13,005 bases of DNA from Acidimicrobiia bacterium (GTDB taxonomy: Bacteria; Actinomycetota; Acidimicrobiia; IMCC26256). The translations under genes were made by a program, and so were the position numbers. Position 1 is the stretch's first letter; each line of letters starts with the position of its first letter. The stretch spans positions 1-13,005 of the forward strand of contig JALRDW010000039.1 in the NCBI GenBank assembly GCA_023262065.1, given 5' to 3'. Below the pieces are notes generated by a model, which was not told where the DNA came from, searched no databases, and worked only from the letters and a program-made list of their open reading frames with translations. This document shows positions 3 to 13,005 of the stretch, piece by piece.

Positions 3-311
3 GGCCGGGCCTGGGCCTACACGATCCAGTGGCCGATCATCGGTGCGTTCGCCGTCGTCGTCTGGAACCGCTATCGCAGGCACGGCAGCATCACCCGGTC
101 CGTCTCGACCTACTTCCGCAATCGGGTGGCCCGGTTCGAGGCCGAGGCGCTGGCAGAGGAGGAGCGGCAGCGCGCGTCGCAGGAGACCCGGCACGATGCC
201 CCGCCTGCACTTGAGGACCCTGACGAGCGTGCATGGCGTGAGCACGTGCGACGCCTGCACCAGCAGGATCCACCCGGAGGACCCCCCGCGCAGCGGCGCA
301 GCGATCGCTAG
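3..311 (+). CDS. C-terminal end of a small membrane protein (5' end outside window)
   Basis: The frame is open from the left edge to TAG at 309-311, giving about 102 visible residues. It begins with a hydrophobic stretch containing W-A-Y-T-I-Q-W-P followed by I-I-G-A-F-A-V-V-V-W, which reads as a final transmembrane helix. A basic stretch (NRYRRHGSITR) and a long charged, Glu/Arg-rich, probably cytoplasmic tail follow. A C-terminal aromatic 'WxYxxQWP' helix is reminiscent of short conserved actinobacterial membrane proteins of unknown role, which are sometimes annotated with the weakly supported name of glucitol operon activator. I cannot assign a function. It ends 9 bp before the GTG of the MFS transporter in the same direction, so the two are probably co-transcribed. 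Confidence 0.6.
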   Translation, partial: GRAWAYTIQWPIIGAFAVVVWNRYRRHGSITRSVSTYFRNRVARFEAEALAEEERQRASQETRHDAPPALEDPDERAWREHVRRLHQQDPPGGPPAQRRSDR

Positions 312-320
312 CCTGCAGCA

Positions 321-1844
321 GTGACGATCAGCCGACGGTGGGGTGCCCTCGCCGTCCTCTCGGGAGCCCTCGCCCTGATCTCGCTCGACAACACGATCGT
401 CAACGTGGCACTTCCCAGCATGCAGGAGAGCCTCGATGCGACCACCTCCGCGCTCCAGTGGGTCGTCGACGCCTACTCGGTCCTGTTCGCCGGGAGCCTG
501 CTGCTGGCCGGAAGCCTCGGCGACAGGTTCGGCCGTCGCCGGATCCTGATGATCGGCCTGCTGGTCTTCGGTGCGGGATCCCTCGCGGCCGGCCTGGCTG
601 CGGATGTGAACGTGCTGACGCTGTGCCGGGCGGTCATGGGCGTGGGCGCCGCGTTCATCATGCCGTCGACCCTGTCGATCGTCGTGCAGGTGTTCCGAGA
701 GCCACGGGAGCGGGCGCAGGCGATCGGCATCTGGTCGGCCGTGGCCGGCGTCGGGGTCGCCCTCGGTCCGATCATCGGCGGCCTGCTCCTCGAGCGGTTC
801 ACCTGGCACGCCATCTTCCTCGTCAACCCGCCGCTCATCGTGCTCGTCCTGCTCGCTGTCCTCCTGGTCGTTCCCGAGTCCCGGGACGACTCCCGGCCCC
901 AGCTGGACATGCGGGGGGCGGCGCTGTCGTCGCTCGGCCTGGTCGCCCTCATCGTGACGATCATCCAACTGCCCGAGCAGGGGGTGGCCGTCACGACCGT
1001 GCTGTCCTTCGCGCTTGCTGCAGCAGCCCTGATCGCGTTCGTGTGGTGGGAGGGCCGGGCGCCGCGCCCCCTCCTGCCGATGGACCTGTTCCGTCATCGG
1101 ACATTCGTCATCTCCGTCGTCACGGTCGGGCTCGTCTACTTCGCGCTGATGGGGGCGACCTTCCTGCTGCCGCAGTTCCTGCAGCTGGTTCAGGACATGT
1201 CGCCGCTGGAGTCGGGCATCGCCCTGCTGCCGGGTGCCGGCGGGTTGTTCGTGGCCTCGCTGGGGAGTCCGGCACTGGCCGCGCGGCTCGGCCCTCGAGC
1301 CACCGTCGTGACCGGCCTGGTGCTCGTCATGCTCGGACTGGGACTCGCGAGCTTCTTCACGGCGGGCACGAACTACGGATTCGTGGCGCTCGCGCTCGGG
1401 CTGGTCGGCGTCGGCATGGGGTGTGCCCTGCCCCAGGCGACGAACGCGGTCCTCGGCAGCGTGCCCCGCGAGCGCGCCGGCATGGGCTCTGCGGTCAACG
1501 ACGCGGTGGGCGAGTTGGGCGGCTCGATCGGCGTCGCCGTCATCGGGGCCCTGATGACCGTCTTCTACCGCGCGCGGATCGACGAGGCCGTGGCGGCGCT
1601 CGGGGAGCGGGCCTCGCAGGTCCCGGCCGAGGTGATCGCCGGAGTGCGCGAATCCCTGGTGTCCGCGTACCTGACTGCGTCGAACCTGTCGACAGCCGAT
1701 GCGGCAGAGGTGCGTGTGACCACTGGGGCTGCATTTGTCGACGGCATGACCTTCGCCCTGCTCATCGGCGCGGTGGTCGTGGCGGTGGGCGTCGTCCTGG
1801 CGTGGCGGCTGTTCCCCACGCGGGTGGACCACGTGGCCGAGTAG
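321..1844 (+). CDS. DHA2-family (EmrB/QacA-type) MFS efflux transporter
   Basis: This 507-residue protein is predicted to be an inner-membrane proton-driven drug or metabolite exporter with 14 TM helices. The family signatures are visible: L-D-N-T-I-V-N-V-A-L-P at residues 22-32 (DHA2 motif in TM1), the motif-A loop G-D-R-F-G-R-R-R at 67-74, and the antiporter motif C G-V-G-V-A-L-G-P-I-I-G-G at 143-154. A P-R-E-R-A-G-M-G-S-A-V-N motif lies in the second half. Length fits the family. The GTG start places the N terminus just before TM1; no strong Shine-Dalgarno is seen, and the upstream gene stops 9 bp earlier. The substrate is unknown. Codons ending in A or T appear somewhat freely, for example GCG-CTT-GCT-GCA-GCA from 1011, whereas the genes to the right seem more strictly C/G-ending. 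No regulator gene is visible nearby. Confidence 0.9.
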   Translation: MTISRRWGALAVLSGALALISLDNTIVNVALPSMQESLDATTSALQWVVDAYSVLFAGSLLLAGSLGDRFGRRRILMIGLLVFGAGSLAAGLAADVNVLTLCRAVMGVGAAFIMPSTLSIVVQVFREPRERAQAIGIWSAVAGVGVALGPIIGGLLLERFTWHAIFLVNPPLIVLVLLAVLLVVPESRDDSRPQLDMRGAALSSLGLVALIVTIIQLPEQGVAVTTVLSFALAAAALIAFVWWEGRAPRPLLPMDLFRHRTFVISVVTVGLVYFALMGATFLLPQFLQLVQDMSPLESGIALLPGAGGLFVASLGSPALAARLGPRATVVTGLVLVMLGLGLASFFTAGTNYGFVALALGLVGVGMGCALPQATNAVLGSVPRERAGMGSAVNDAVGELGGSIGVAVIGALMTVFYRARIDEAVAALGERASQVPAEVIAGVRESLVSAYLTASNLSTADAAEVRVTTGAAFVDGMTFALLIGAVVVAVGVVLAWRLFPTRVDHVAE

Positions 1845-1866
1845 TCGGGAAATCCTGCCGAACCGG

Positions 1867-2973
1867 TCATGGCCAGGCCGCGATCGCCACGCTCCCCTCG
1901 AACGACGCGACCGTCGACCGGAACGCCTCGACGAGGTCGGTGCCCTCGCCGAGCGCCCGCGACACCAGGGTCGGGATCACCTTGGCGTCAGTGGTGATCT
2001 CGGGGGCGATGCCGAGGCCGTGCCGGGTGACGAGTTCGAGGTGGTTGTCGACGTCCCCGTTGAGCGCCGCCGCCACGTACGGTCCGGTCGGGCCCCCGGT
2101 CTCCTCGTGGTTGAGCGGATGCGCGTTCGCCTCGGAGATGATCCCCACACTCGCCCAGCGCGTGTGTCCGAGGACGACCACCTCCGGGTGCGCGCCGGCG
2201 AGCGCGAGGTGGAGCAGGTCGTCGTCGGTGATCGCCGCGCGCAGCGCAGCGACGTTGTCACCGAGTTCACCGATCTCGGCTGCGGCCTTGTAGACGAACG
2301 CCAGCGCATCGCCCACGGCGCGCACCGACCGGTTCCGCAGCAGCGGGTCCGCCGAACGGTCGTCGATGCGTCGTCGCACCGCCGGGTCGGCGAGGTCGAG
2401 GCCGTGCCCGCGGACGTGCAGGTGGAGGCCGGCCGAGTCGCGGCCGCGCACCTCGAGGCGGTCGATGGCGCTGAGCGCGACCTGCACCGAGTGGAACCCG
2501 GCGATCGCCGGGTGGTGGGAGGCCGGGTCGAGACCGGCGAGCAGTCCGTGGATCGCGTCAGCGGTCCGGAGCCGGTCACGGGCCACCGCCCACGCCGCGT
2601 CCTTCGCCGCGACGAGGGCCTCGTTGACCGGTTCGACGTCATCGGCGTCCACGGCACCCGCGTCGAGCGCCGCCTCGAGGCGAGCGAGGAGCGGGCCGAG
2701 CGCCTCGGCGTCGTCGCGCACCCGCACCGCACCCCGGCGGTCGGCGAGCAGGGCCGTCGCCCCCGGCACCCCCCGCAGCGCGGCGTCGACCGCAGCCGCG
2801 TGCTCGGCCGCATCCCGGAGGTGGGCCGCGCCGAGCGCGCCGTCGCCGGCCTCCACCGCCGTGAGGGCGGCGGTGAGGTGGCCGCGGGCCGTGACGAGCT
2901 CGGCGGCGAGGCCGGGGAGGTCGGGCAGGGCCCGGTCAGAGGGGCGCCGCAGGACGGCGATGATTCCGCACAC
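1867..2973 (-). CDS. glmS: Truncated glucosamine-6-phosphate synthase: glutaminase domain only
   Basis: GlmS makes glucosamine-6-phosphate from fructose-6-phosphate and glutamine, the first step to UDP-GlcNAc. The 368 residues contain only the class-II glutamine amidotransferase half. Cys2 (M-C-G-I-I) is the N-terminal nucleophile; R-G-R-D-S-A-G lies at 176-182, G-H-T-R-W-A-S-V-G at 269-277, N-A-H-P-L at 283-287, L-N-G-D-V-D-N at 304-310, and T-D-A-K-V-I-P at 328-334. The frame ends F-E-G-S-V-A-I-A-A-W-P-stop, in the strand that normally leads on to the linker and two SIS domains. No SIS sequence is found in any frame to the left, where the antisense of the MFS gene begins. About 145 extra, mostly helical residues separate Cys2 from the RGRDSAG motif, far more than in E. 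coli GlmS. The start is GTG, 46 bp after glmM. As it stands it cannot make glucosamine-6-phosphate. Confidence 0.85.
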   Translation of the reverse strand: MCGIIAVLRRPSDRALPDLPGLAAELVTARGHLTAALTAVEAGDGALGAAHLRDAAEHAAAVDAALRGVPGATALLADRRGAVRVRDDAEALGPLLARLEAALDAGAVDADDVEPVNEALVAAKDAAWAVARDRLRTADAIHGLLAGLDPASHHPAIAGFHSVQVALSAIDRLEVRGRDSAGLHLHVRGHGLDLADPAVRRRIDDRSADPLLRNRSVRAVGDALAFVYKAAAEIGELGDNVAALRAAITDDDLLHLALAGAHPEVVVLGHTRWASVGIISEANAHPLNHEETGGPTGPYVAAALNGDVDNHLELVTRHGLGIAPEITTDAKVIPTLVSRALGEGTDLVEAFRSTVASFEGSVAIAAWP

Positions 2974-3019: not shown

Positions 3020-4351
3020 TCAGGCGGTCCCGAGGGCGGCGGTGAGAGCCGCGACGAGCCGGTCGGCCGCGGTGTCGGCGACGCCCGGGGCGAGCGCCTC
3101 GACCATCACCCGCACCACCGGCTCGGTGCCCGATGGGCGGACGAGCACCCGACCGTCATCGCCCAGGTCGGCCTCGACCGCGGCCACCTCGGCCCAGAAC
3201 GCTGCGGCCTGCTCGAGCCCGTCGCGATCCGCGACCCGCACGTTGCGCAGCACCTGGGGCGCCTTCTGCACCTCGCGGGCGAGCACGTCGAGCGGGAGGC
3301 CCGAGCGGGCGACCACGTCGAGCACCGCGATCCCGGTGAGCGTGCCGTCGCCCGTCGTCGCCAACGCGCCGAGGATGATGTGTCCGCTCTGCTCACCCCC
3401 GAGCACGAGCCCACGCTCGTCCATGGCCGCCTTGACGGCACGGTCGCCGACCGGGGTCTCGACCACCTCGATGTCGTGCGCCGCGAGTGCACGCCGCAAC
3501 CCGAGGTTGGCCATGACGGTGGTGGCGATCGCCCGGTGCCGGAGTGCGTCGCGGGCCGCCAGGTCGAGCGCGAGCACCGCGAGGATCTCGTCGCCGTCGA
3601 CGATCGCGCCCCGCGCGTCCACCATGACGATCCGATCCGCATCGCCGTCGAGGGCGAGGCCCGCATCGGCCCCGCTCTCCACGACCGTGCGGGCGAGCGC
3701 GCCCGGATCGGTGGAACCACAGCCGTCGTTGATGTTGCGACCGTCGGGCGCGTCGTTGAGCACGTGCACCGTCGCACCGAGCGCTCGCAGCGCCCGCGGT
3801 GCGACCGCGTACGCAGCGCCGTGACCGCAGTCGACCACGACCGAGAGCCCCTCGAGCCGACGTCCGTCGAGCGAGCGGACGAGTCGGGCCACGTAGTCGT
3901 CGGCCGCAGCCGGTGCCGATGGGGGCGGGGGGCCGTCGACCTCGGGGGAACCGGCGGCGAGCACCGCGTCGAGTTCGGTCTCGATCGCGGCCTGCTGCTC
4001 GTCGGAGACCTTCGTGCCCCCGCGTGCGAACACCTTCACGCCGTTGTCGCGCCACGGGTTGTGACTGGCCGAGACCATCGCCCCCGGCATCCCGCGGGTC
4101 GCGGCCAACCCGGCGAGCCCGGGGGTGGGGAGCACCCCGCACGAGGCCACCGCGGCGCCCTCGGCGGCGAGGCCCGCGGCGAGGGCGGCCTCGAGGGCCG
4201 GGCCCGACTCCCGGGTGTCGCGGGCGGTGAGGTACGGGTCGGCCGTGCCGAGCACCCGCGCGACGGCGCGACCGAGTGCGTGGACGAATCCCGTCGTGAG
4301 GTCGACGTGGGCCTCGCCGCGGACGCCGTCGGTGCCGAAGCGCGGGGGCAT
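3020..4351 (-). CDS. glmM: Phosphoglucosamine mutase GlmM
   Basis: GlmM converts glucosamine-6-phosphate to glucosamine-1-phosphate in the cytoplasm, on the way to UDP-GlcNAc for peptidoglycan. The 443-residue length is normal. Four signatures of the alpha-D-phosphohexomutase family are intact: F-G-T-D-G-V-R-G near the N terminus; the phosphoserine loop S-A-S-H-N-P at 94-99 with Ser96 as the phosphorylated residue; the Mg-binding loop D-G-D-A-D-R at 235-240; and the sugar-binding G-E-Q-S-G-H at 319-324. The phosphate-binding R-P-S-G-T-E-P is at 405-411. ATG start. It begins 26 bases after the rpsI stop without a clear ribosome binding site, so it is probably translated from the rplM-rpsI message. 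It lies directly upstream of glmS, the enzyme that supplies its substrate. Confidence 0.97.
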   Translation of the reverse strand: MPPRFGTDGVRGEAHVDLTTGFVHALGRAVARVLGTADPYLTARDTRESGPALEAALAAGLAAEGAAVASCGVLPTPGLAGLAATRGMPGAMVSASHNPWRDNGVKVFARGGTKVSDEQQAAIETELDAVLAAGSPEVDGPPPPSAPAAADDYVARLVRSLDGRRLEGLSVVVDCGHGAAYAVAPRALRALGATVHVLNDAPDGRNINDGCGSTDPGALARTVVESGADAGLALDGDADRIVMVDARGAIVDGDEILAVLALDLAARDALRHRAIATTVMANLGLRRALAAHDIEVVETPVGDRAVKAAMDERGLVLGGEQSGHIILGALATTGDGTLTGIAVLDVVARSGLPLDVLAREVQKAPQVLRNVRVADRDGLEQAAAFWAEVAAVEADLGDDGRVLVRPSGTEPVVRVMVEALAPGVADTAADRLVAALTAALGTA

Positions 4352-4377: not shown

Positions 4378-4770
4378 CTAGCGCTTCGAGTACTGCGGAG
4401 CCTTGCGGGCCTTCTTGAGGCCGTACTTGCGCCGCTCCTTCTCACGCGAGTCACGCGTGAGGAGGCCCGCCTTCTTGAGCGCGGGGCGCTGCTCCGGGTC
4501 GAGCGCGGCGAGGGCCCGGGCGATGCCGAGCCCGAGGGCACCGGCCTGGCCGGAGATGCCACCGCCGTCGATCGTGGCGTCCACGTCGTAGACGTCGGCG
4601 GTCTGGGTCAGACGGAGCGGCTCGGTCGCGGCCATGCGGTGGGTCGCGATCGAGAAGTAGCGCTCGACCTCACGGCCGTTGATCGTGACCTTGCCCGAAC
4701 CGGGGCGCAGGCGCACGCGGGCCACGGCCTCCTTACGACGTCCGGTGGTCTGGATGAGCGGCTTCGGCAC
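4378..4770 (-). CDS. rpsI: 30S ribosomal protein S9 (uS9)
   Basis: This is a 130-residue ribosomal protein of the small-subunit head whose basic C-terminal tail reaches toward the P-site tRNA. Diagnostic segments are [11 protein letters not shown] near the N terminus, [11 protein letters not shown] in the middle, and the terminal [12 protein letters not shown], whose final S-K-R is the classic S9 ending. The frame stays open upstream through rplM, so the start must be chosen. GTG at 4770 gives the normal length and N terminus and has an AGGA-type ribosome binding site a few bases before it. It follows rplM with a 20-base gap, the near-universal L13-S9 pairing. Confidence 0.97.
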
Positions 4771-4775
4771 GAGGG

Positions 4776-4782
4776 TTCCTTC
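4776..4782 (-). promoter_or_regulatory. Ribosome binding site deciding the rpsI start
   Basis: The minus strand reads GAAGGAA five bases before the GTG at 4770. It supports that start over the longer open frame, which continues far upstream through rplM. Confidence 0.7.
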
Positions 4783-4790
4783 GCTGGTCG

Positions 4791-5252
4791 TCACTGGGCC
4801 TTGCGGGCGCGGGCCGGCAGGGCGTGGTCGACGGGGTTCTGGGCGGCGTGCGGGTGCGCGGCGCCCGGGTAGACACGCAGCTTCTTGAGCATCGCCCGGC
4901 CCAACCGGCCCTTGGGCAGCATGCCCTTGACCGCGAGCTTGATGACGCGGTCGGGGTGGCGCTCGATCATGTCCTGCAGGGAGGACTGCTTGAGGCCGCC
5001 CGGGTAGCCGGAGTGCCGGTAGTACTGCTTCTCCACCGCCTTGCGGGCCGAGATGTCCAACTTGGCCGCGTTCACCACGATGACGTGGTCGCCCGTGTCG
5101 ACGTGGGGCGCGTAGATCGGCTTGTGCTTGCCGCGGAGGAGGTTCGCGACCTCGGTCGCGAGGCGCCCCAGGACGGCGTCCTCGGCGTCGACGACGTGCC
5201 AGGCCCGCTGGATGTCGGACGGCCGGGGGGTGAAGGTCTTGGCGGAGGACAC
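4791..5252 (-). CDS. rplM: 50S ribosomal protein L13 (uL13)
   Basis: L13 is an early-assembling large-subunit protein. The 153-residue product has the typical order: a short N-terminal tail with T-F-T-P-R-P and [50 protein letters not shown]; the signature [12 protein letters not shown]; and [16 protein letters not shown]. Length is normal. GTG start, preceded by a purine-rich GAAGAGA. It is the first gene of the rplM-rpsI-glmM-glmS unit, with a recognisable promoter about 110 bases upstream. Confidence 0.97.
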
Positions 5253-5360
5253 GTTGGAGTCTCTTCGGGTTCGTGGGGCGTCGGCCGGACGGCGCGGACG
5301 CAGGGGTGCTGGGCGTTCGGGGTCTCCGGGGACCGTGCGGTCGCCGGACGCGGAGGGAGC

Positions 5361-5390
5361 ATCCTAGCGATGCCCCTGAGGGCCCGACAA
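5361..5390 (-). promoter_or_regulatory. Sigma-A-type promoter for the rplM operon
   Basis: On the minus strand TTGTCG (5385-5390) and TAGGAT (5361-5366) are separated by 18 bases, close to the housekeeping -35/-10 consensus. Transcription would start near 5354 and give a leader of about 100 bases before the rplM GTG. This is the best promoter match I found in the window. Confidence 0.6.
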
Positions 5391-5532
5391 TCCGGGACCG
5401 CGGCAGCCCGACCGGGCGCCGACGGCCGAGTTCACCAGTTCTTGGGTGGCGCGTCGGGTCTCGGCGGCCGACACTGCCCGTGGACCCTCGGAACCGGGCC
5501 GGGGCGCGGATCGTTGTCCCGGTGGACGGCGG

Positions 5533-5538
5533 TACCAT
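5533..5538 (+). promoter_or_regulatory. Possible -10 element for the secreted-protein gene
   Basis: CGGTACCAT contains TACCAT here, matching the CGGTA(C/G)NNT form seen before other genes in the window. TTGTCC at 5514-5519 is only 13 bases upstream, too close for a normal -35, so only the -10 is proposed. It would give a leader of about 75 bases. Confidence 0.35.
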
Positions 5539-5553
5539 CCGCCCCCGTTCGCA

Positions 5554-5574
5554 GGCCGGGCCGGGCCGGGCCGG
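5554..5574 (+). repeat. Short CCGGG tandem repeat
   Basis: Three perfect CCGGG units plus a partial CCGG, preceded by GG, lie in the presumed leader of the secreted-protein gene. Because it is non-coding and short, it may be simple GC-rich drift. Length variation here would alter the leader, not the protein. Confidence 0.55.
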
Positions 5575-5620
5575 ACGGGTGCGGGACGAGGGACACGAGG
5601 CACGGGGGATCAGGACCGCG

Positions 5621-8443
5621 GTGAGCAGTCGGATGAGCAGGTACCGGCACCGGGTCGGCGGGGCGCTGGCCGCGCTGGCCCTCGTCGCGACCGGATCCAC
5701 CGGGCTCCTCGTCGGCCTCGACCCGGCCCCCGCCGGCGCCGCCATCCCGGACGCCGCGGCGGGCGGGTTCACGGGGGTCACGCCGGTGCGGCTCCTCGAC
5801 ACCCGGAACAACCCGGCCGGTCCGACCGGGGCCGCCACCGGCTGCGTGTCGGGGGCCCGGGCCCTGCGGGTGGTCGGCGACGGCTCGCCCGCCCCGGTGA
5901 CGGCGGCCGCGGTGGCGCTCAACGTGACCGTCGTGAGCCCGAGCATCCCGGGCTTCGTGACCGTGTACCCCGGCGGCACGCCGCTGCCCCCGGCCTCCTC
6001 GCTGAACTACGTGGGCGGCCAGGTCGTCCCGAACAACGTCATCGCGAAGGTCGGCGGGTTCGGCGTGGTGAACCTGTACGCGAGCGGCGGGTGCCCCCAC
6101 CTCGTGGTCGACATCGTCGGGTACTTCGCGACCGGCACGCCGGCCGCCGGCGGGATCACGGGCATCGAGCCCGAACGACTCCTCGACACCCGGTCGCCGG
6201 GTGACGGCCCCTGCGTGAGCGGGGTGCGCACCACCCAGGTGGCGGGCCGGCCGTTCTCGGCCGTGCCCGCCGACGCGTCCGCGGTCGCGCTCAACGTCAC
6301 GGTCGTCGGGCCGGGCCTGCCCGGGTACCTCACCGTGTACCCGAAGGGTGCCGTGCCGCCGACGGCCTCGACCCTCAACTACACCCCCGGTCAGGTCGTG
6401 CCGAACGGCACGGTGGTCAAGGTCGGGGCCGACGGGTCCATCGCGCTGTTCGCGAACGCCGGGTGTCCGAACGTCATCGTCGACGTGGTCGGGTACTTCG
6501 CGCCCGGTGCGCCCACGAGCGCGGGCGGGTTCTTCGGCGTGAACCCGTTCCGGCTGCTCGACTCCCGCAACGCCGGCCAGGTCCCGTGCATCGGCGGCAC
6601 CCGCTCCTACTCGCTCACGGTCGCGGGCGTCGATGGGTCCGCCGTGCCCGCCGAGTCCCGGGCGGTCGCGCTCAACGTGACGGTCACCGGAGCGTCGGTC
6701 CCCGGCTACATCACGGTCTACCCGTCGGGCTCACCCCGACCCACCGCATCGAACCTCAACTACGTCGGCGGTCAGACCGTGCCGAACGGCGTGCTGGTGA
6801 AGGTCGGCACGGGCCAGAGCATCGAGCTGTTCGCGAGCGGAGGCTGCCCGGATCTCATCGTCGATGCGGTCGGCGGCTTCACCGCGACCCCGATCCCGCT
6901 GGTCGACGGCTGCACCGCGTCGGAGGCGCTCGTGACGGCCTGTCGCTGGTACCAGCAGACGAGCATCGCCCCGCCGAGCACCGCGATCGGTGAGGTGGTC
7001 GGCCGCCAGGCGGTGAGCGCGGACGGGCGCTACGTGGCGTTCGCCTCGGGCACCACCTCGCAGATCTTCCACCGCGACCTCGCCACCGGCCTGACCCGCC
7101 TCGTGAGCCACGGACCGACCGGCGCGCTCGGTGACGACTCGTCCTACGAACCGGCGATCAGCGCGAACGGGCGCTACGTCGTGTTCATCTCGGACGCCAC
7201 GAACCTCACCGGGATCGAGAAGACGAACTTCGTGCAGGAGGCCTACCGGTGGGACGCGACCACCGACACGCTCCTGCGCATCGGGTACGACCCGGCCCGG
7301 GTCGGTGACGAGGAGCCGAACGGCGACGCGTGGAGCCCGAGCATCAGCGACGACGGCGATCGCATCTGCATCATCTCGGACGCGGACAACCTCGCGGTCA
7401 TCGAGAACCCGAGCCTCATCGGCGAGGCGCTCGTGTACACCGTCTCCACGGACACCTGGGTCGACGCGTCCAAGCAGCCGCTCATCATCTCGCCGCCGGA
7501 CGGCGTCGACTCGGCACAGATCAGCGGCAACGGTCGCTACGTGACCTTCATGTCCGACGACCCGAACGCCACCTTCGACACCAACGAGGCACCCGACGTC
7601 TACCGGCGCGACCTCACCACGCTCACGACCGAGTGGGTGACCCGCCGTCCCACCGGCGGTCCCGCAACCGAGGGCGGGGGCGACCCGGCGATCTCAGCCG
7701 ACGGGCGCTACGTCGCGTTCGTGTCCCTCTCGAACCAGTGGGACTTCGACGGCACCGACGTCGGCTTCACCTACGACGTGTTCGTGCGCGACATGGCGAC
7801 CTCGGCGGTCACCCGCGTGAGCCGCACGCCGGCCGGCGCGGTGCTGAACGGCGACTCCTACGCCCCGCTCATCAGCGCCGACGGCCGGTACGTCGCGTAC
7901 CTCACCGACGCCACCAATGCGGTGGCGGGCGATACGAACGGGGTGACGGACCTCATCGTGCGCGATCTGGCCGCGAGCACGAACCTGCGGGCCTCGGTCA
8001 CCCCGGCCCTCGGCCAGCTCGCGAGCGGCGTGTACGACCCGGTGTTCACGGCCGACGGCAAGTACGCGGGCTGGTCGACCGCCGAGGCCCTGTTCCCGAC
8101 CGAGGACCACGCGGGGCCCGACTCCGTCCTGCGGTTCCTCGCCGCCACGCCCACGATCGCGACCGTGACGCCGACCTCCCTCGGCGCCGGCACCGCACCC
8201 ACCATCACCGTCACCGGTTCCGGGTTCGCCGCCGACGCGGTCCCGGTGGTCGACGGCGAGGGCGTGACCGTGAGCGGGGTCGCCGTGAACGCATCCGGCA
8301 CCCAGATCACGTTCACGCTCACCGTCGCGGCGAGCGGGGCGGTCGGACGCCACGACCTGTGGATCCGCAATCCGGGCGGGGTCGGGTTCCCGTACGGCGG
8401 GTCGGTGACGGTCGGGCGCACGGGGCTGCTGCGCGTCACCTGA
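5621..8443 (+). CDS. Secreted modular protein: three RLLDTR repeats, seven PD40-like repeats, IPT/TIG domain
   Basis: The 940-residue protein starts with a basic then hydrophobic signal peptide (residues 7-40, ending A-P-A-G-A) and is predicted to be exported. Three repeats of about 125 residues follow, marked by R-L-L-D-T-R or R-L-L-D-S-R at 57, 186 and 311. Each also carries A-L-N-V-T-V, a G-x-x-T-V-Y-P segment, L-N-Y-x-x-G-Q and V-D-x-V-G, with two cysteines placed alike. Seven [13 protein letters not shown] PD40/TolB-type motifs begin at 464, 512, 574, 633, 690, 750 and 808, matching a seven-bladed propeller. An IPT/TIG domain fills about 844-930. There is no C-terminal anchor or sorting motif. 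GTG at 5621 is chosen because AGGA lies five bases upstream; ATG at 5633 is the alternative. RLLDTR repeats occur in many actinobacterial surface proteins, but the ligand is unknown. Surface binding is inference. Confidence 0.85.
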
Positions 8444-8457
8444 CCGGCGGCCCCCGG

Positions 8458-8463
8458 TACCCT
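8458..8463 (+). promoter_or_regulatory. -10 element of a probable leaderless promoter
   Basis: TACCCT, within CCCGGTACCCT, ends seven bases before the A of the ATG at 8470. That is the spacing expected if transcription starts at the start codon itself. The 26-base gap from the previous gene has no Shine-Dalgarno sequence, which supports leaderless translation, common in actinobacteria. No convincing -35 is visible. Confidence 0.5.
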
Positions 8464-8469
8464 GCGGAC

Positions 8470-10017
8470 ATGACGCAGGCCGACCCCCCGCCCCGCCCGA
8501 CCACCGAGCTCGCGCCCGAACGCGCCGCTTCGGCGGCCGCGGCTCTCGACGTGCTCCTCGACTCGGCGCTCGAACCGATCGTCGACATGGTGCTGCTGGC
8601 CCGGGACGGCGGCTACGAGGCCCTGACCCACGACGGGTCGACCCGGTTCCGCCGCGTCGGCCCGGGGCCCGAGGACTTCGAGGTGATCGCCACCGAGGGG
8701 ATCGACCCCCTCGCCGACCGCTCGACGGACCGATTCGCCCCGCTCGAGGCGGAGACCGCGAACCTCCACCCCCACCGCTCCGAGAACGCGTACCCCCACG
8801 CGTTCGACCAGGTCGCGCAACTCTTCGACCACCCGGCCGCGCCGGACCTCGCGGTCATCCACTCGGCGGCCCACAACTGGGAGGACCAGGGCGGACACCT
8901 CGGGGAGCACGGTTCGATCGGGATCGTGCAGGCCCGGGCCCCCTTCATCGTCGCGGGCGCCGGGGTGCGCGCCGAGGGGTTCGTGCCCCGCAGCGCCCGC
9001 CTCGTCGACGTCGCCCCGACGGTCGCGCACCTGCTCGGGTGCGCGCCGCTCGACGACGCGGGCACCTACGTCGCCGGTCAGGACGGCGAGGTCCGCCTCG
9101 ATCTGATCGACGACGGCGCGGCGCGCCCGAAGCACGTCGTGCTCGTGCTGTGGGACGGCACGAACCCGAACGTCCTGTACGACATGGCGCGGCGCGGCGA
9201 GGCCCCGAACGTCGCCCGCCTCATCGGCATGGGCACCGCCTACGAGCACGGCGCGATGTCGGGCCTGCCGACCGTGACCCTGGCCAACCACACCTCGATC
9301 GCCACCGGCCGCCTGCCCGGCCACCACGGGATCCTGCACAACGCGTGGTACGACCGGGCCCGGGCCACCCAGGTCATCACGAACTCCGAGCTCACCTGGG
9401 CCACTGCGATGGACCACTGCTTCCCCGGGGTCGAGTCGATCCACACCGCCGTGCACCGCACCTGGGCCGACGCGTTCACCGCCTCGATCAACGAGCCCTG
9501 CGACATCGACGCGGACTTCTCGACCTTCGGCTTCTTCCGCCGGGGTGAGGTCCCTCCGATCCCGAAGTCCCCGCTCGGACTGCCCCACACCACCGAGCGG
9601 TTCGTGCGGCCGTCGAAGGACTACGCGTGGTCCTCGATCATGGACCACATGAGCGCCGAGCAGGCCACGGGGATCTGGAGCGGGCACTACCGCGACGTCA
9701 CCTACGAGCGGCCCCGGTTCATGTTCGCGAACTTCACGCTCACCGACGCGGCGATGCACGAGGGTGGCCCGCACTCCGAGATGGCGGCCGCCGCCGTCCG
9801 GGACTCCGACGCCCGGCTCGGCGACCTGCTCGCGGCGGTCGAGGCGGCCGGAGCGTTCGACGAGACCGCGTGGGTGCTCGTGGCCGACCACGGCATGGAG
9901 GAGAGCGACCGCGCCGTGACCGGCGACTGGGGGGTGGCCCTGCGCGAGGCCGGGGTCACCTTCCGGGACGAGGGCTACTCGTTCCTCTACCTGGACGAGG
10001 AGTTCGCCGGGTCCTGA
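8470..10017 (+). CDS. Alkaline phosphatase superfamily (nucleotide pyrophosphatase/phosphodiesterase-like) protein with permuted motif order
   Basis: The 515-residue protein has no signal peptide or TM segment and is probably cytoplasmic. The C-terminal half carries the start of an NPP-like fold. Asp229 lies in L-W-D-G-T-N; the presumed nucleophile Thr270 is in L-P-T-V-T-L-A-N-H followed by T-S-I-A-T-G-R-L-P-G-H-H-G-I; Asp426 and His430 are in T-D-A-A-M-H; and Asp473-His474 are in A-D-H-G-M. The piece that normally follows A-D-H-G is instead at the N terminus: the L-A-R-D-G-G-Y strand near residue 40, then G-H-L-G-E-H-G-S with His143/His147, then A-P-F-I-V-A-G-A-G-V and D-V-A-P-T-V-A-H-L-L-G. 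All expected metal ligands are therefore present, but in circularly permuted order. It probably hydrolyses a phosphodiester or phosphomonoester; the substrate is unknown. The gene starts 26 bases after the secreted-protein gene. Confidence 0.85.
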   Translation: MTQADPPPRPTTELAPERAASAAAALDVLLDSALEPIVDMVLLARDGGYEALTHDGSTRFRRVGPGPEDFEVIATEGIDPLADRSTDRFAPLEAETANLHPHRSENAYPHAFDQVAQLFDHPAAPDLAVIHSAAHNWEDQGGHLGEHGSIGIVQARAPFIVAGAGVRAEGFVPRSARLVDVAPTVAHLLGCAPLDDAGTYVAGQDGEVRLDLIDDGAARPKHVVLVLWDGTNPNVLYDMARRGEAPNVARLIGMGTAYEHGAMSGLPTVTLANHTSIATGRLPGHHGILHNAWYDRARATQVITNSELTWATAMDHCFPGVESIHTAVHRTWADAFTASINEPCDIDADFSTFGFFRRGEVPPIPKSPLGLPHTTERFVRPSKDYAWSSIMDHMSAEQATGIWSGHYRDVTYERPRFMFANFTLTDAAMHEGGPHSEMAAAAVRDSDARLGDLLAAVEAAGAFDETAWVLVADHGMEESDRAVTGDWGVALREAGVTFRDEGYSFLYLDEEFAGS

Positions 10018-10026
10018 CCGACGCGT

Positions 10027-10054
10027 CCTGACGTTCCCGGGACGCCGGTAGATT
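10027..10054 (+). promoter_or_regulatory. Weak promoter candidate for the SGNH-MBOAT pair
   Basis: TAGATT (10049-10054), within GCCGGTAGATT, has a good -10 shape. CCTGAC at 10027-10032 is a poor -35 at 16-base spacing. The implied leader is about 50 bases and ends in a GAGGGGG ribosome binding site four bases before the ATG at 10109. Confidence 0.4.
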
Positions 10055-10108
10055 CAGGCTCCTCGAGGGGCCCGGACCGCGTGGCTCCGGTACGGCCGAG
10101 GGGGACCG

Positions 10109-11143
10109 ATGCGGGAGCAGGGGCCGGACTCCGAGCGCGCCGCAGGTCGCCGGCGCTGGCTCGGGGTGCTCGCCGGCGCGCTCGTCGTCCTCGTGCTCGC
10201 CGAGATCGGTGTCCGCCTCATCGAACCCCGCCTCCCGGAGCCACGCGACTGGTTCTCCCCATCGGCGGCCCGCCTCGTGCGCGAGATGGACGCCGCGGCC
10301 ACCGACGGTGCCACCGGCGGCTTCGTCGTGGCCGGTTCGTCGATGGCCGGGCGCGACCTCGTCCCCGACCGCGTCGTCACGGACCCCGAGGTCCCCACGG
10401 GCAGCGTCGCACTCGCCGGGGGCGGGCAGACCACGGTGCAGGAGCGGTGGCTCACCGAGGAGGTCGGGCCCCGTCTCCGCCCGGGCGCCGTGCTCTGGGG
10501 CATCTCATCGCTCGACTTCAACGCGACCCGGCGGGCCGACACGATCGACCGGTACGCGTCGGCCCGGGCCACGCGCACCGATCGGTTCGGCGCGGCCGAT
10601 CGGGTGCTGGCCCGGTACTCGGCGCTCGCCCGCAACCGGGACTCCCTGCGGGACCCCTACCTCATGCTGCAGGTCCTCACCGGGGCCGACGAGTCCGACG
10701 CGCTCCCCGATCGACGCGGCGACGCGGCGCTCGGGTTCGCCCGCGGGTACCGCGAGGTCCCCCCGGAGACCCTCGCCCGCCTACGGGCCGCGGAGGCGGC
10801 GTTCGCCCGGGACACCCAGTTGCGGGGGTTCCGGATCGGACGCGAGGAGGTCGCGGCCTACCGGCGCACGCTGCGCGCGCTGCGGCGCACGACCGACCGC
10901 GCCGTGGTGGTGATCATGCCGGTGACCCGGGAGTACATCGACGCGCACCCGAACGGGTCGCGGGACTACGAGCGCTGGGTGCGGGTGGTCACCCGGGTCG
11001 CCCGCGAGGAGGGCGTGCCCCTCCTCGACGAGACCCGCGCGATGCCCGAGTCCGCGTTCCGGGACCTCGAGCACCTCGACGAGGCCGGGGCCGAGGCGTT
11101 CTCCGACCGGCTGCGCACGACGCTGGACGGGATGGGGTGGTGA
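10109..11143 (+). CDS. Membrane-anchored SGNH/AlgJ-DltD-like protein, partner of the MBOAT
   Basis: The 344-residue protein has a short basic cytoplasmic start, one TM helix at about 17-34 and a large domain presumably outside the membrane. Two weak SGNH-type signatures are visible. A-G-S-S-M-A at 75-80 follows a hydrophobic strand, as in the G-D-S or G-S-S nucleophile loop. D-L-E-H-L at 319-323, with Asp319 and His322, resembles the C-terminal D-x-x-H dyad. In known systems (AlgJ/AlgX of alginate, DltD of teichoic acids, PatB-like proteins) such partners receive acyl groups passed across the membrane by an MBOAT and transfer them to polymers. It starts at ATG with GAGGGGG upstream and ends one base before the MBOAT GTG, which implies translational coupling. 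The family assignment rests largely on this context plus the two motifs; the substrate is unknown. Confidence 0.7.
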   Translation: MREQGPDSERAAGRRRWLGVLAGALVVLVLAEIGVRLIEPRLPEPRDWFSPSAARLVREMDAAATDGATGGFVVAGSSMAGRDLVPDRVVTDPEVPTGSVALAGGGQTTVQERWLTEEVGPRLRPGAVLWGISSLDFNATRRADTIDRYASARATRTDRFGAADRVLARYSALARNRDSLRDPYLMLQVLTGADESDALPDRRGDAALGFARGYREVPPETLARLRAAEAAFARDTQLRGFRIGREEVAAYRRTLRALRRTTDRAVVVIMPVTREYIDAHPNGSRDYERWVRVVTRVAREEGVPLLDETRAMPESAFRDLEHLDEAGAEAFSDRLRTTLDGMGW

Positions 11144-11144
11144 G

Positions 11145-12563
11145 GTGAGCTTCAACTCGCTGCAGTTCATCCTGCTGCTCGTCCTCGTGGTGCTCACCTA
11201 CTGGCGACTGCGACTCCGGGGCCAGAACCGACTCCTGCTCCTCGCGTCGTACGTGTTCTACGGCTGGTGGGACTGGCGGTTCCTGCTGCTGCTCGTCGTC
11301 ACGACGGTCATCGACTTCGCGATCGGCATCCGGATCGAGGAGGCGGTGGGCGAGCGGGCGAAGCGGGTGTGGCTCGTCTCACAGCTCGTCTTCAACCTCG
11401 GGATCCTCGCGTTCTTCAAGTACGCGAACTTCTTCATCGACTCGGCCCAGCAGGTCGCCGATGCGCTCGGCCTCGAGTGGAGCGCGCCGGTGCTGCGGAT
11501 CATCCTCCCCGTGGGGATCTCGTTCTTCGTGTTCCACGAGATCTCGTACGCGGTGGACATCTTCCGGGGTCGCCTGCGGGCCGAACGCAGCCTCGCCACC
11601 TACGCACTGTTCATCGCGTACTTCCCGCTGCTCGCCGCGGGTCCGATCGAGCGGGCCTGGCACCTGCTCCCCCAGTTGCGGACCGAGCGCCGGCGGCCGA
11701 ACCGCGAGCAGGTGTACTCGGGGATCCTGCTCATCATCACCGGCATCTTCAAGAAGGTCGTGATCGCGGACACCGTCGCCGTGGTCGCGAACGCGGTGTT
11801 CGCACGGCCCGAGGGGCGCGGGTTCATCCCGCTCGCGGTCGGCGCGGTGGCGTTCGCGATCCAGATCTACGGCGATTTCTCCGGGTACACCGACGTCGCG
11901 CGCGGGACCTCGCGCCTGCTCGGCATCGAGGTGTTCCGCAACTTCGAGCAGCCGTACCTGTCGACCTCCATCACCCAGTTCTGGCGCACCTGGCACATCT
12001 CGCTGTCCTCGTGGCTGCACGACTACCTGTACATCCCGCTCGGCGGCAACCAGCGCGGTCGGTTCGGGACCTACCGCAACCTGTTCCTCGTCATGCTCAT
12101 CGGTGGGCTCTGGCACGGGGCGGCGTGGACGTTCGTCATCTGGGGCGGGCTGCATGGCGTGGCCCTCGCCGTGCACCGGGCGCTCGGCGCCTACGAGCCG
12201 CGGGGCCGACCGGGCGTCCCGGGCCTGCGCGATGTGCCGAAGATCCTCGGCACGTTCACCCTCGTCACCGCGCTCTGGGTGTTCTTCCGGGCCGAGAGCC
12301 TCGGCGACGCCTTCGCGTTCTTCCGCAACATGACGAACGGCCCCATCGGATCGGTGCCCGGGGCGTGGAAGGCCGACCTCCTCACGGTCGGCCTGTTCGC
12401 CGTGCTCGTGCTCGCGATGGACCTCGTCGACCGCCGGCGCGCGGTGCTGCGACCGCTGCAGTGGTCGCCGGTCCTCCAGGGCGCACTCGTGGGCGCCGCC
12501 CTCGTCGGCATCCTCGTGTGGTCCGGCACCGCACCGGTGCCGTTCATCTACTTCCAGTTCTGA
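11145..12563 (+). CDS. MBOAT family O-acyltransferase (AlgI-like)
   Basis: This 472-residue multi-pass membrane protein is of the type that moves acyl groups, usually acetyl, across the membrane for O-acylation of surface polymers. Family landmarks appear in order: S-Y-V-F-Y-G-W-W-D-W in the N-terminal helices; P-V-G-I-S-F-F-V-F-H-E-I-S-Y; F-P-L-L-A-A-G-P-I-E; Q-I-Y-G-D-F-S-G-Y-T-D-V-A-R-G; W-R-T-W-H-I-S-L-S-S-W-L-H-D-Y-L-Y-I-P-L-G-G with His284; and G-G-L-W-H-G-A-A-W with the presumed catalytic His324. F-F-R-A-E-S at the C-terminal side is also typical. Length fits AlgI homologues. The GTG start is separated by one base from the stop of the SGNH-like gene. No alginate or other polymer synthesis genes are in the window, so the acceptor cannot be named. 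Confidence 0.93.
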   Translation: MSFNSLQFILLLVLVVLTYWRLRLRGQNRLLLLASYVFYGWWDWRFLLLLVVTTVIDFAIGIRIEEAVGERAKRVWLVSQLVFNLGILAFFKYANFFIDSAQQVADALGLEWSAPVLRIILPVGISFFVFHEISYAVDIFRGRLRAERSLATYALFIAYFPLLAAGPIERAWHLLPQLRTERRRPNREQVYSGILLIITGIFKKVVIADTVAVVANAVFARPEGRGFIPLAVGAVAFAIQIYGDFSGYTDVARGTSRLLGIEVFRNFEQPYLSTSITQFWRTWHISLSSWLHDYLYIPLGGNQRGRFGTYRNLFLVMLIGGLWHGAAWTFVIWGGLHGVALAVHRALGAYEPRGRPGVPGLRDVPKILGTFTLVTALWVFFRAESLGDAFAFFRNMTNGPIGSVPGAWKADLLTVGLFAVLVLAMDLVDRRRAVLRPLQWSPVLQGALVGAALVGILVWSGTAPVPFIYFQF

Positions 12564-12570
12564 TCCGACC

Positions 12571-12592
12571 CGGCCCACGGGGACCGGGGCCG
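12571..12592. terminator. Weak hairpin between convergent genes
   Basis: CGGCCC and GGGCCG form a 6-bp stem around a 10-base loop in the 30-base gap between the MBOAT stop and the convergent stop of the last gene. It could work in both directions, but there is no T-tract and chance pairing is likely in DNA this GC-rich. Confidence 0.2.
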
Positions 12593-12593
12593 C

Positions 12594-13005
12594 TCAGGCC
12601 GGGAGCGGACCCCAGGTCGCGAGCACGCGGGCGAGATCGCGTTCGGCGAGCGTCGTGCGGAACCGCAGCGAGACGCCGTCGACGGTGAGGCCCCCGATGG
12701 TCGCCGCACCGTCCTGCCCGATCCACCCCACGTTCGCACCGGCGGTGAAGCGGGCGGATCCGGTCGCGGCCGGCGTCGGGCAGCCCGGCGCCTTGAGGTA
12801 CACCGCGAGGTAGCCGGCCGCGAGCGGCTCGCCGGCCGGCGCGTAGAGGGTGAGCACCTGCTGGCAGGTGCCGTCCCCCTGGCTCGGGGTGATCCCGACG
12901 ACGCTGCGCAGGCTCCAGCCCGCCGGGAGGGCCACGGGCGCCCGCCGCACCGCGGCGTCCAGCGCGCCCGCCTGCGGATCGCGGACACCGTCGACGGGCA
13001 CCGCG
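12594..13005 (-). CDS. C-terminal part of an unrecognised protein (5' end outside window)
   Basis: About 136 residues are visible; the frame runs off the right edge, so the start is unknown. A GTG at 13001 is in frame but there is no reason to prefer it. The segment is small-residue and beta-rich. It includes S-V-V-G-I-T-P-S-Q-G-D-G-T-C-Q-Q-V-L-T-L-Y-A and L-A-V-Y-L-K-A-P-G-C-P, whose two cysteines could form a disulfide. It then has G-W-I-G-Q-D-G-A and V-S-L-R-F-R-T-T-L-A-E-R-D-L-A-R-V-L before ending W-G-P-L-P-A. The look is of an exported or lipoprotein C-terminal domain, but that is inference and I recognise no family. Of the overlapping frames, this one is chosen for its plausible composition and its stop just past the MBOAT stop. 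Confidence 0.6.
   Translation of the reverse strand, partial: AVPVDGVRDPQAGALDAAVRRAPVALPAGWSLRSVVGITPSQGDGTCQQVLTLYAPAGEPLAAGYLAVYLKAPGCPTPAATGSARFTAGANVGWIGQDGAATIGGLTVDGVSLRFRTTLAERDLARVLATWGPLPA

Follow-up and report, generated by a model that had tools for sequence, protein, structure and literature searches.

Chimeric contigs that arise by misassembly are an error class of metagenome-assembled genomes (MAGs) treated in the GUNC paper (PMC8201837). As far as the accessible part of that paper goes, misassemblies are relatively rare and misbinning is the major source of error. Two protein families provide the other points of comparison for the locus described here, the bacterial glutamine-fructose-6-phosphate transaminase GlmS (TIGR01135, NF001484) and the DHA2-type efflux permeases of the MFS (TIGR00711).

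The window, by which we mean the whole stretch of 13,005 bases analysed, is the entire contig C130 of assembly G000, a MAG of 2.10 Mb in 300 contigs that is 79.28% complete and 1.28% contaminated. We hold with high confidence that C130 is a chimeric metagenome contig in which a misjoin near the left end, within 1845-1875, cuts glmS. In its fragments from two sources, and in the switch of gene lineage at one point, it resembles the class in the accessible part of PMC8201837, and we noted no difference in kind. Both the 5′ part of glmS in the window and a further part on contig C33 match the bacterial GlmS family, and the whole protein of a congener covers model positions 66-589 of 607. In contrast to that family, the congener protein has ~1,167 residues and scores 206 bits against a cut-off of 418, and the window contains one piece only. 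The MFS protein of the window is predicted to be a DHA2-type efflux permease (254.8 bits against a cut-off of 230.2), with no differences from the family noted.

Layout of the contig and the break in glmS

The features of the contig are collected in Table 1. Because the named relatives of the GlmS piece among the best 120 are mostly Acidimicrobiia, Acidimicrobiales or unplaced Actinobacteria (the odd names being one Gaiellaceae and one cyanobacterium TDX16), we regard the host as Acidimicrobiia-like. No relative more than 66% identical to the glmS 5′ part was found among the best 120; the probe was 652 residues long and the candidates at most 1,141 amino acids, so that this search is silent on full-length copies from the same species. 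The extra gene at 8470-10017 encodes 515 amino acids and has weak matches, every one far under its cut-off, to models for alkaline phosphatase PafA and for phosphonoacetate hydrolase; a counterpart is absent at the matching place in congener G003 (L024).

Table 1 Features along contig C130
Feature	Position	Strand	Remarks
Small gene, 3′ part	3-311	+	Start outside the contig; regarded as foreign to the host
MFS transporter gene, complete, DHA2 efflux-type	321-1844	+	TIGR00711; judged foreign to the host
Join zone	1845-1875		Join placed to within this zone, between the MFS stop, which ends at 1844, and the end of GlmS homology at the Ala codon 1876-1878, the last family-shared residue
glmS, 5′ part, long-type	1867-2973	-	Open frame, stop just past the join
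glmM, intact	3020-4351	-	TIGR01455, 460.2 bits (cut-off 447.55); gene order shared with L024 and L025
Ribosomal protein genes	4378-5252	-	rplM at 4791-5252 (TIGR01066); presumably also rpsI, named by eye; collinear with L024 and L025
Remaining host part of the contig	5273-13005		Collinear with L024 by tblastn of the window's frames, except for one extra gene, 8470-10017

A preliminary description of this DNA had reported a glmS frame that tracks its family as far as FEGSVAIAA and then reads Trp-Pro-stop, an MFS gene on the opposite strand ending 22 bases from that stop, an intact glmM beside the broken gene, and no isomerase-half sequence to the left. All of this holds: the glmS frame encodes 368 amino acids and breaks off as stated, glmM stands in the place expected from the congeners, and neither the glmS family nor the full GlmS of a congener, searched against the whole genome, places a GlmS piece left of 1867 on the contig. 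At the break point, three congeners (L005-L007) read ...FEGSMAIAAHSG(T/A)DPNQLLLALRGSG..., their residues beyond the break being H-S-G-(T/A)-D-P-N-Q-L-L-L-A-L-R-G-S-G. The gene had also been described as cut in half; it is indeed truncated, to what is nearer a third (366 residues against 1,167 in the congener protein). The window piece spans positions 11-97 of the 130 of GATase_6, with positions 98-130 missing, whereas the congener GlmS has positions 12-130 plus a SIS domain. As the cut falls inside the glutaminase domain, the domain is incomplete in the window piece.

A repeat at the junction was considered and rejected, since a DNA search of G000 with 1780-1960 gave, besides the region itself, short matches only. 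HflX GTPase genes on C273 and C255 gave the two best of these (92% and 91% over 30-35 bases), and the longest shared exact word, of 24 bases, is at 1912-1935, away from the join. A 27-base pattern from 1848-1874, which would mark the same join elsewhere, had no match in viral contigs, a poor place to look. In their first 400 bases, C273 (L161) and C255 (L162) both begin inside HflX-type GTPase genes; the two pieces overlap at model positions 243-280 and their sequences differ, as expected from two lineages in one bin.

The rest of glmS on a second contig

The preliminary description had proposed a search of the rest of the assembly for the 3′ half of glmS. With the full GlmS of the congener as query, G000 contains two matching places, C130 (congener residues 8-403, 62% identity) and C33 (residues 594-1186, 74% identity), the frame on C33 being open to the contig end and the match beginning eight residues in from it. 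The missing half is thus on C33, and the usual next genes are present: glmS is followed by the gene for NAD(P)H-hydrate dehydratase/epimerase and then by alr, in the same order as in the congeners G003 and G002. On C130, the genes after glmS (glmM, rplM and others) are arranged as in G003, and also as in G002 as far as the G002 contig extends. In the one-contig congener G003 (L024), the counterpart of the C130 piece ends at 7284 and that of the C33 piece starts at 6704, and ~0.56 kb of glmS is in neither contig of G000. Apart from an assembly gap, the glmS neighbourhood is in normal order. The host glmS very probably runs on through the ~0.56 kb missing from the assembly and then along C33; we infer this continuity, as the middle of the gene was found on no contig of G000 in the search with the congener's full GlmS. 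The concern that a genome without the isomerase half would hardly be viable is answered by C33.

In congener G001, glmS is likewise split over two contigs, C283 (L163) and C207 (L164). The ends of these contigs share an overlap of 788 bases (96.8% identity), the pattern expected of two strains in one bin.

In this order, GlmS reaches roughly double the usual length. A match to the window GlmS piece was found in 39 of 40 other genomes, in a frame of more than 600 codons in 38 of them and of 1,115-1,327 codons in 29, against a model of 607 positions. The exception is G022, with a 363-codon frame; the frames in G007, G009 and G020 (622-626 codons) gave weak matches only. The preliminary description had allowed for a family of homologues that naturally ends at the break; none was seen among the 39 matching genomes, the match in G022 stopping at residue 309. 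In the GlmS of G003 (L024:4929-8489), the glutaminase match does not begin until residue 287, and beyond the last model match, at 868, the protein extends for ~320 more residues.

Affinity and composition of the left end

Within the order, the best full-length matches to the window MFS protein in 20 other genomes are 45-47% identical, and the higher figures come from fragments (57% over ~140 residues in G008 and G017, 54% over 69 residues in G014). The best matches within the genus reach 41% (G003), 30% (G002) and 52% over 203 residues (G001), the last being a fragment that the MFS tree groups with the G003 protein. Outside the order, relatives are 84% identical in a protein collection, 62-63% for those named ‘Candidatus Nanopelagicales’ and 60-66% in the MAGs L049-L052 and L055. 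A tree of 56 rows, built by a quick method with 20 own-order rows (one of which comes from G000 itself), five of these 20 being long branches and three of the five very long, places the window protein in a clade of 26 rows (support 99) that includes none of the 20 own-order rows and whose named members are Nanopelagicales and Actinomycetales MAGs. Forcing the window protein together with the own-order rows cost 474 log units (AU p 0.00013).

Four of the eight genomes with near MFS relatives have a GlmS over the TIGR01135 cut-off (one partial), unlike the long type of the host. The others comprise one genome without a GlmS match, two with fragments or weak matches, and G048, a counter-example that combines a 57% MFS relative with a 1,168-codon GlmS-like frame. 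Given this combination, it is possible that such an MFS gene occurs in a host-type genome, or that the G048 bin is itself mixed. Four MAG records with near MFS relatives (L049, L050, L051 and L056, the last being G048) are titled Bifidobacterium breve, and these titles look wrong. Among plasmids, the left segment matched 83 records, all at 60-80% identity and none covering 80% of the query in one place.

The small gene was found in none of the 57 other genomes of the order at a threshold of E 0.001, gave no Pfam or NCBIfam match and was without a relative in the rest of G000, where a single further row had E 3.3. Its relatives are mostly 125-150 amino acids long, and a named one (P0184, 48%) comes from an ‘Actinomycetales bacterium’ MAG. 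It was found in seven of the nine genomes carrying near MFS relatives, two of the seven with an internal stop. No MFS gene adjoins it in any of L129-L135 (0 of 7); for the nearer relatives, the adjacency of the two genes is suggested by equal longest-contig sizes, the sole basis for it (P0019 and P0145, 9,096; P0014 and P0146, 4,765; P0012 and P0147, 10,136; P0009 and P0152, 5,020).

The codons of the MFS gene had been thought less strictly C/G-ending, which is right in direction and slight in size, with a GC3 of 0.907 against 0.921 for glmS and 0.914 for glmM; four other MFS matches in the bin have values of 0.915-0.943. A comparison of composition on the two sides of the break, also proposed earlier, used as reference 89 chunks, each of 1,866 bases, taken from C33, 19 host contigs and the window's right part. 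On this scale, the left end lies at the compositional edge of the bin, with only 3 of 89 chunks scoring lower at order 2 and 2 of 89 at orders 3 and 4; when an all-N contig is counted, the figures are 3-4 of 90, and 5 of 90 by tetranucleotide distance. The difference between left and right is mild, and so is the support that it lends to a foreign left part, short of proof.

Origin of the join

Real recombination and a wrong join near 1866-1876 had been offered as alternatives. We favour a wrong join at that place over recombination, because the other half of glmS lies on C33 in conserved order and the near relatives of the left 1.84 kb lie outside the host's order. To the right of about 1876, the contig would be DNA of the host, whose genome is Acidimicrobiia-like and whose glmS is of the ordinary long type. 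To the left of about 1844, it would be DNA of another actinobacterial lineage, comprising the small gene's 3′ part plus the MFS gene and attached to the host DNA within the join zone. The genes on the two sides of this point differ in lineage, on the left by the MFS tree and the order-wide search for the small gene and on the right by collinearity, with G048 as a possible exception. Since most of the missing part of glmS, all but ~0.56 kb, is present on another contig of the same genome in its normal context, an ordinary assembly error is indicated. The sequences show that glmS lies in two pieces, both collinear with two congeners, that the left part has foreign affinities and that the cut is in mid-domain. 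A single misjoin, as one such error, would account for all of this, and the join was very probably made in the computer, not in the cell. Against a misjoin, nothing of the MFS gene is missing, and the point directly behind its stop, where the join falls, is one at which a functional insertion could likewise finish. We withhold certainty in part because misassemblies, in the accessible part of PMC8201837, are relatively rare compared with misbinning.

A real event would mean that a segment of another lineage, carrying both the small gene and the MFS gene, recombined into glmS and disrupted it, either in this strain or in a part of its population. The sequence is joined without N, and the MFS gene has its own stop. 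MFS genes are commonly transferred between lineages, and the overlap between the G001 glmS contigs indicates that strain mixtures occur in such bins. Yet such an event would have destroyed the one glmS that was found in the bin, and on C33 the 3′ half still stands with its neighbours in the usual arrangement. The remaining GlmS piece stops inside a domain, and two host contigs end or break within one gene, C33 among them, as an assembly gap would give. A family search recognised no mobility gene in 1-1866, though just 1.87 kb of the segment is in view before the contig ends. We consider recombination of this kind improbable. There is only a slim chance that a recent transfer from another actinobacterial lineage really cut the host's only found glmS and left the strain reliant on another source of glucosamine-6-phosphate; if this were true, the strain must obtain the compound by another route or from its neighbours.

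A naturally split GlmS, with the glutaminase and isomerase parts as two separate genes in this species, would agree with the location of the parts on different contigs and with the open C33 frame, whose start is out of view. It is highly unlikely, as the 5′ part lacks the end of the glutaminase profile, a single frame of more than 600 codons is the rule in the other matching genomes, and the break is also the point at which the DNA turns foreign-looking; we rejected a natural short or split form on the mid-domain cut and because none of the 39 matching genomes showed a GlmS with its end at this point. A base-calling error that put a false stop into a continuous glmS has practically no probability: nothing was found in its favour, and it is contradicted by the sequence, which past 1876 leads through an intergenic gap into the oppositely oriented MFS gene, both GlmS searches of the genome having placed nothing there.

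From a biological perspective, the chimeric reading means that bases 1-1866 of C130 are not to be taken as host DNA, nor glmS as lost in the species. Left unmarked, the join would produce a spurious gene loss as well as a spurious gene transfer; for the biology it makes no difference.
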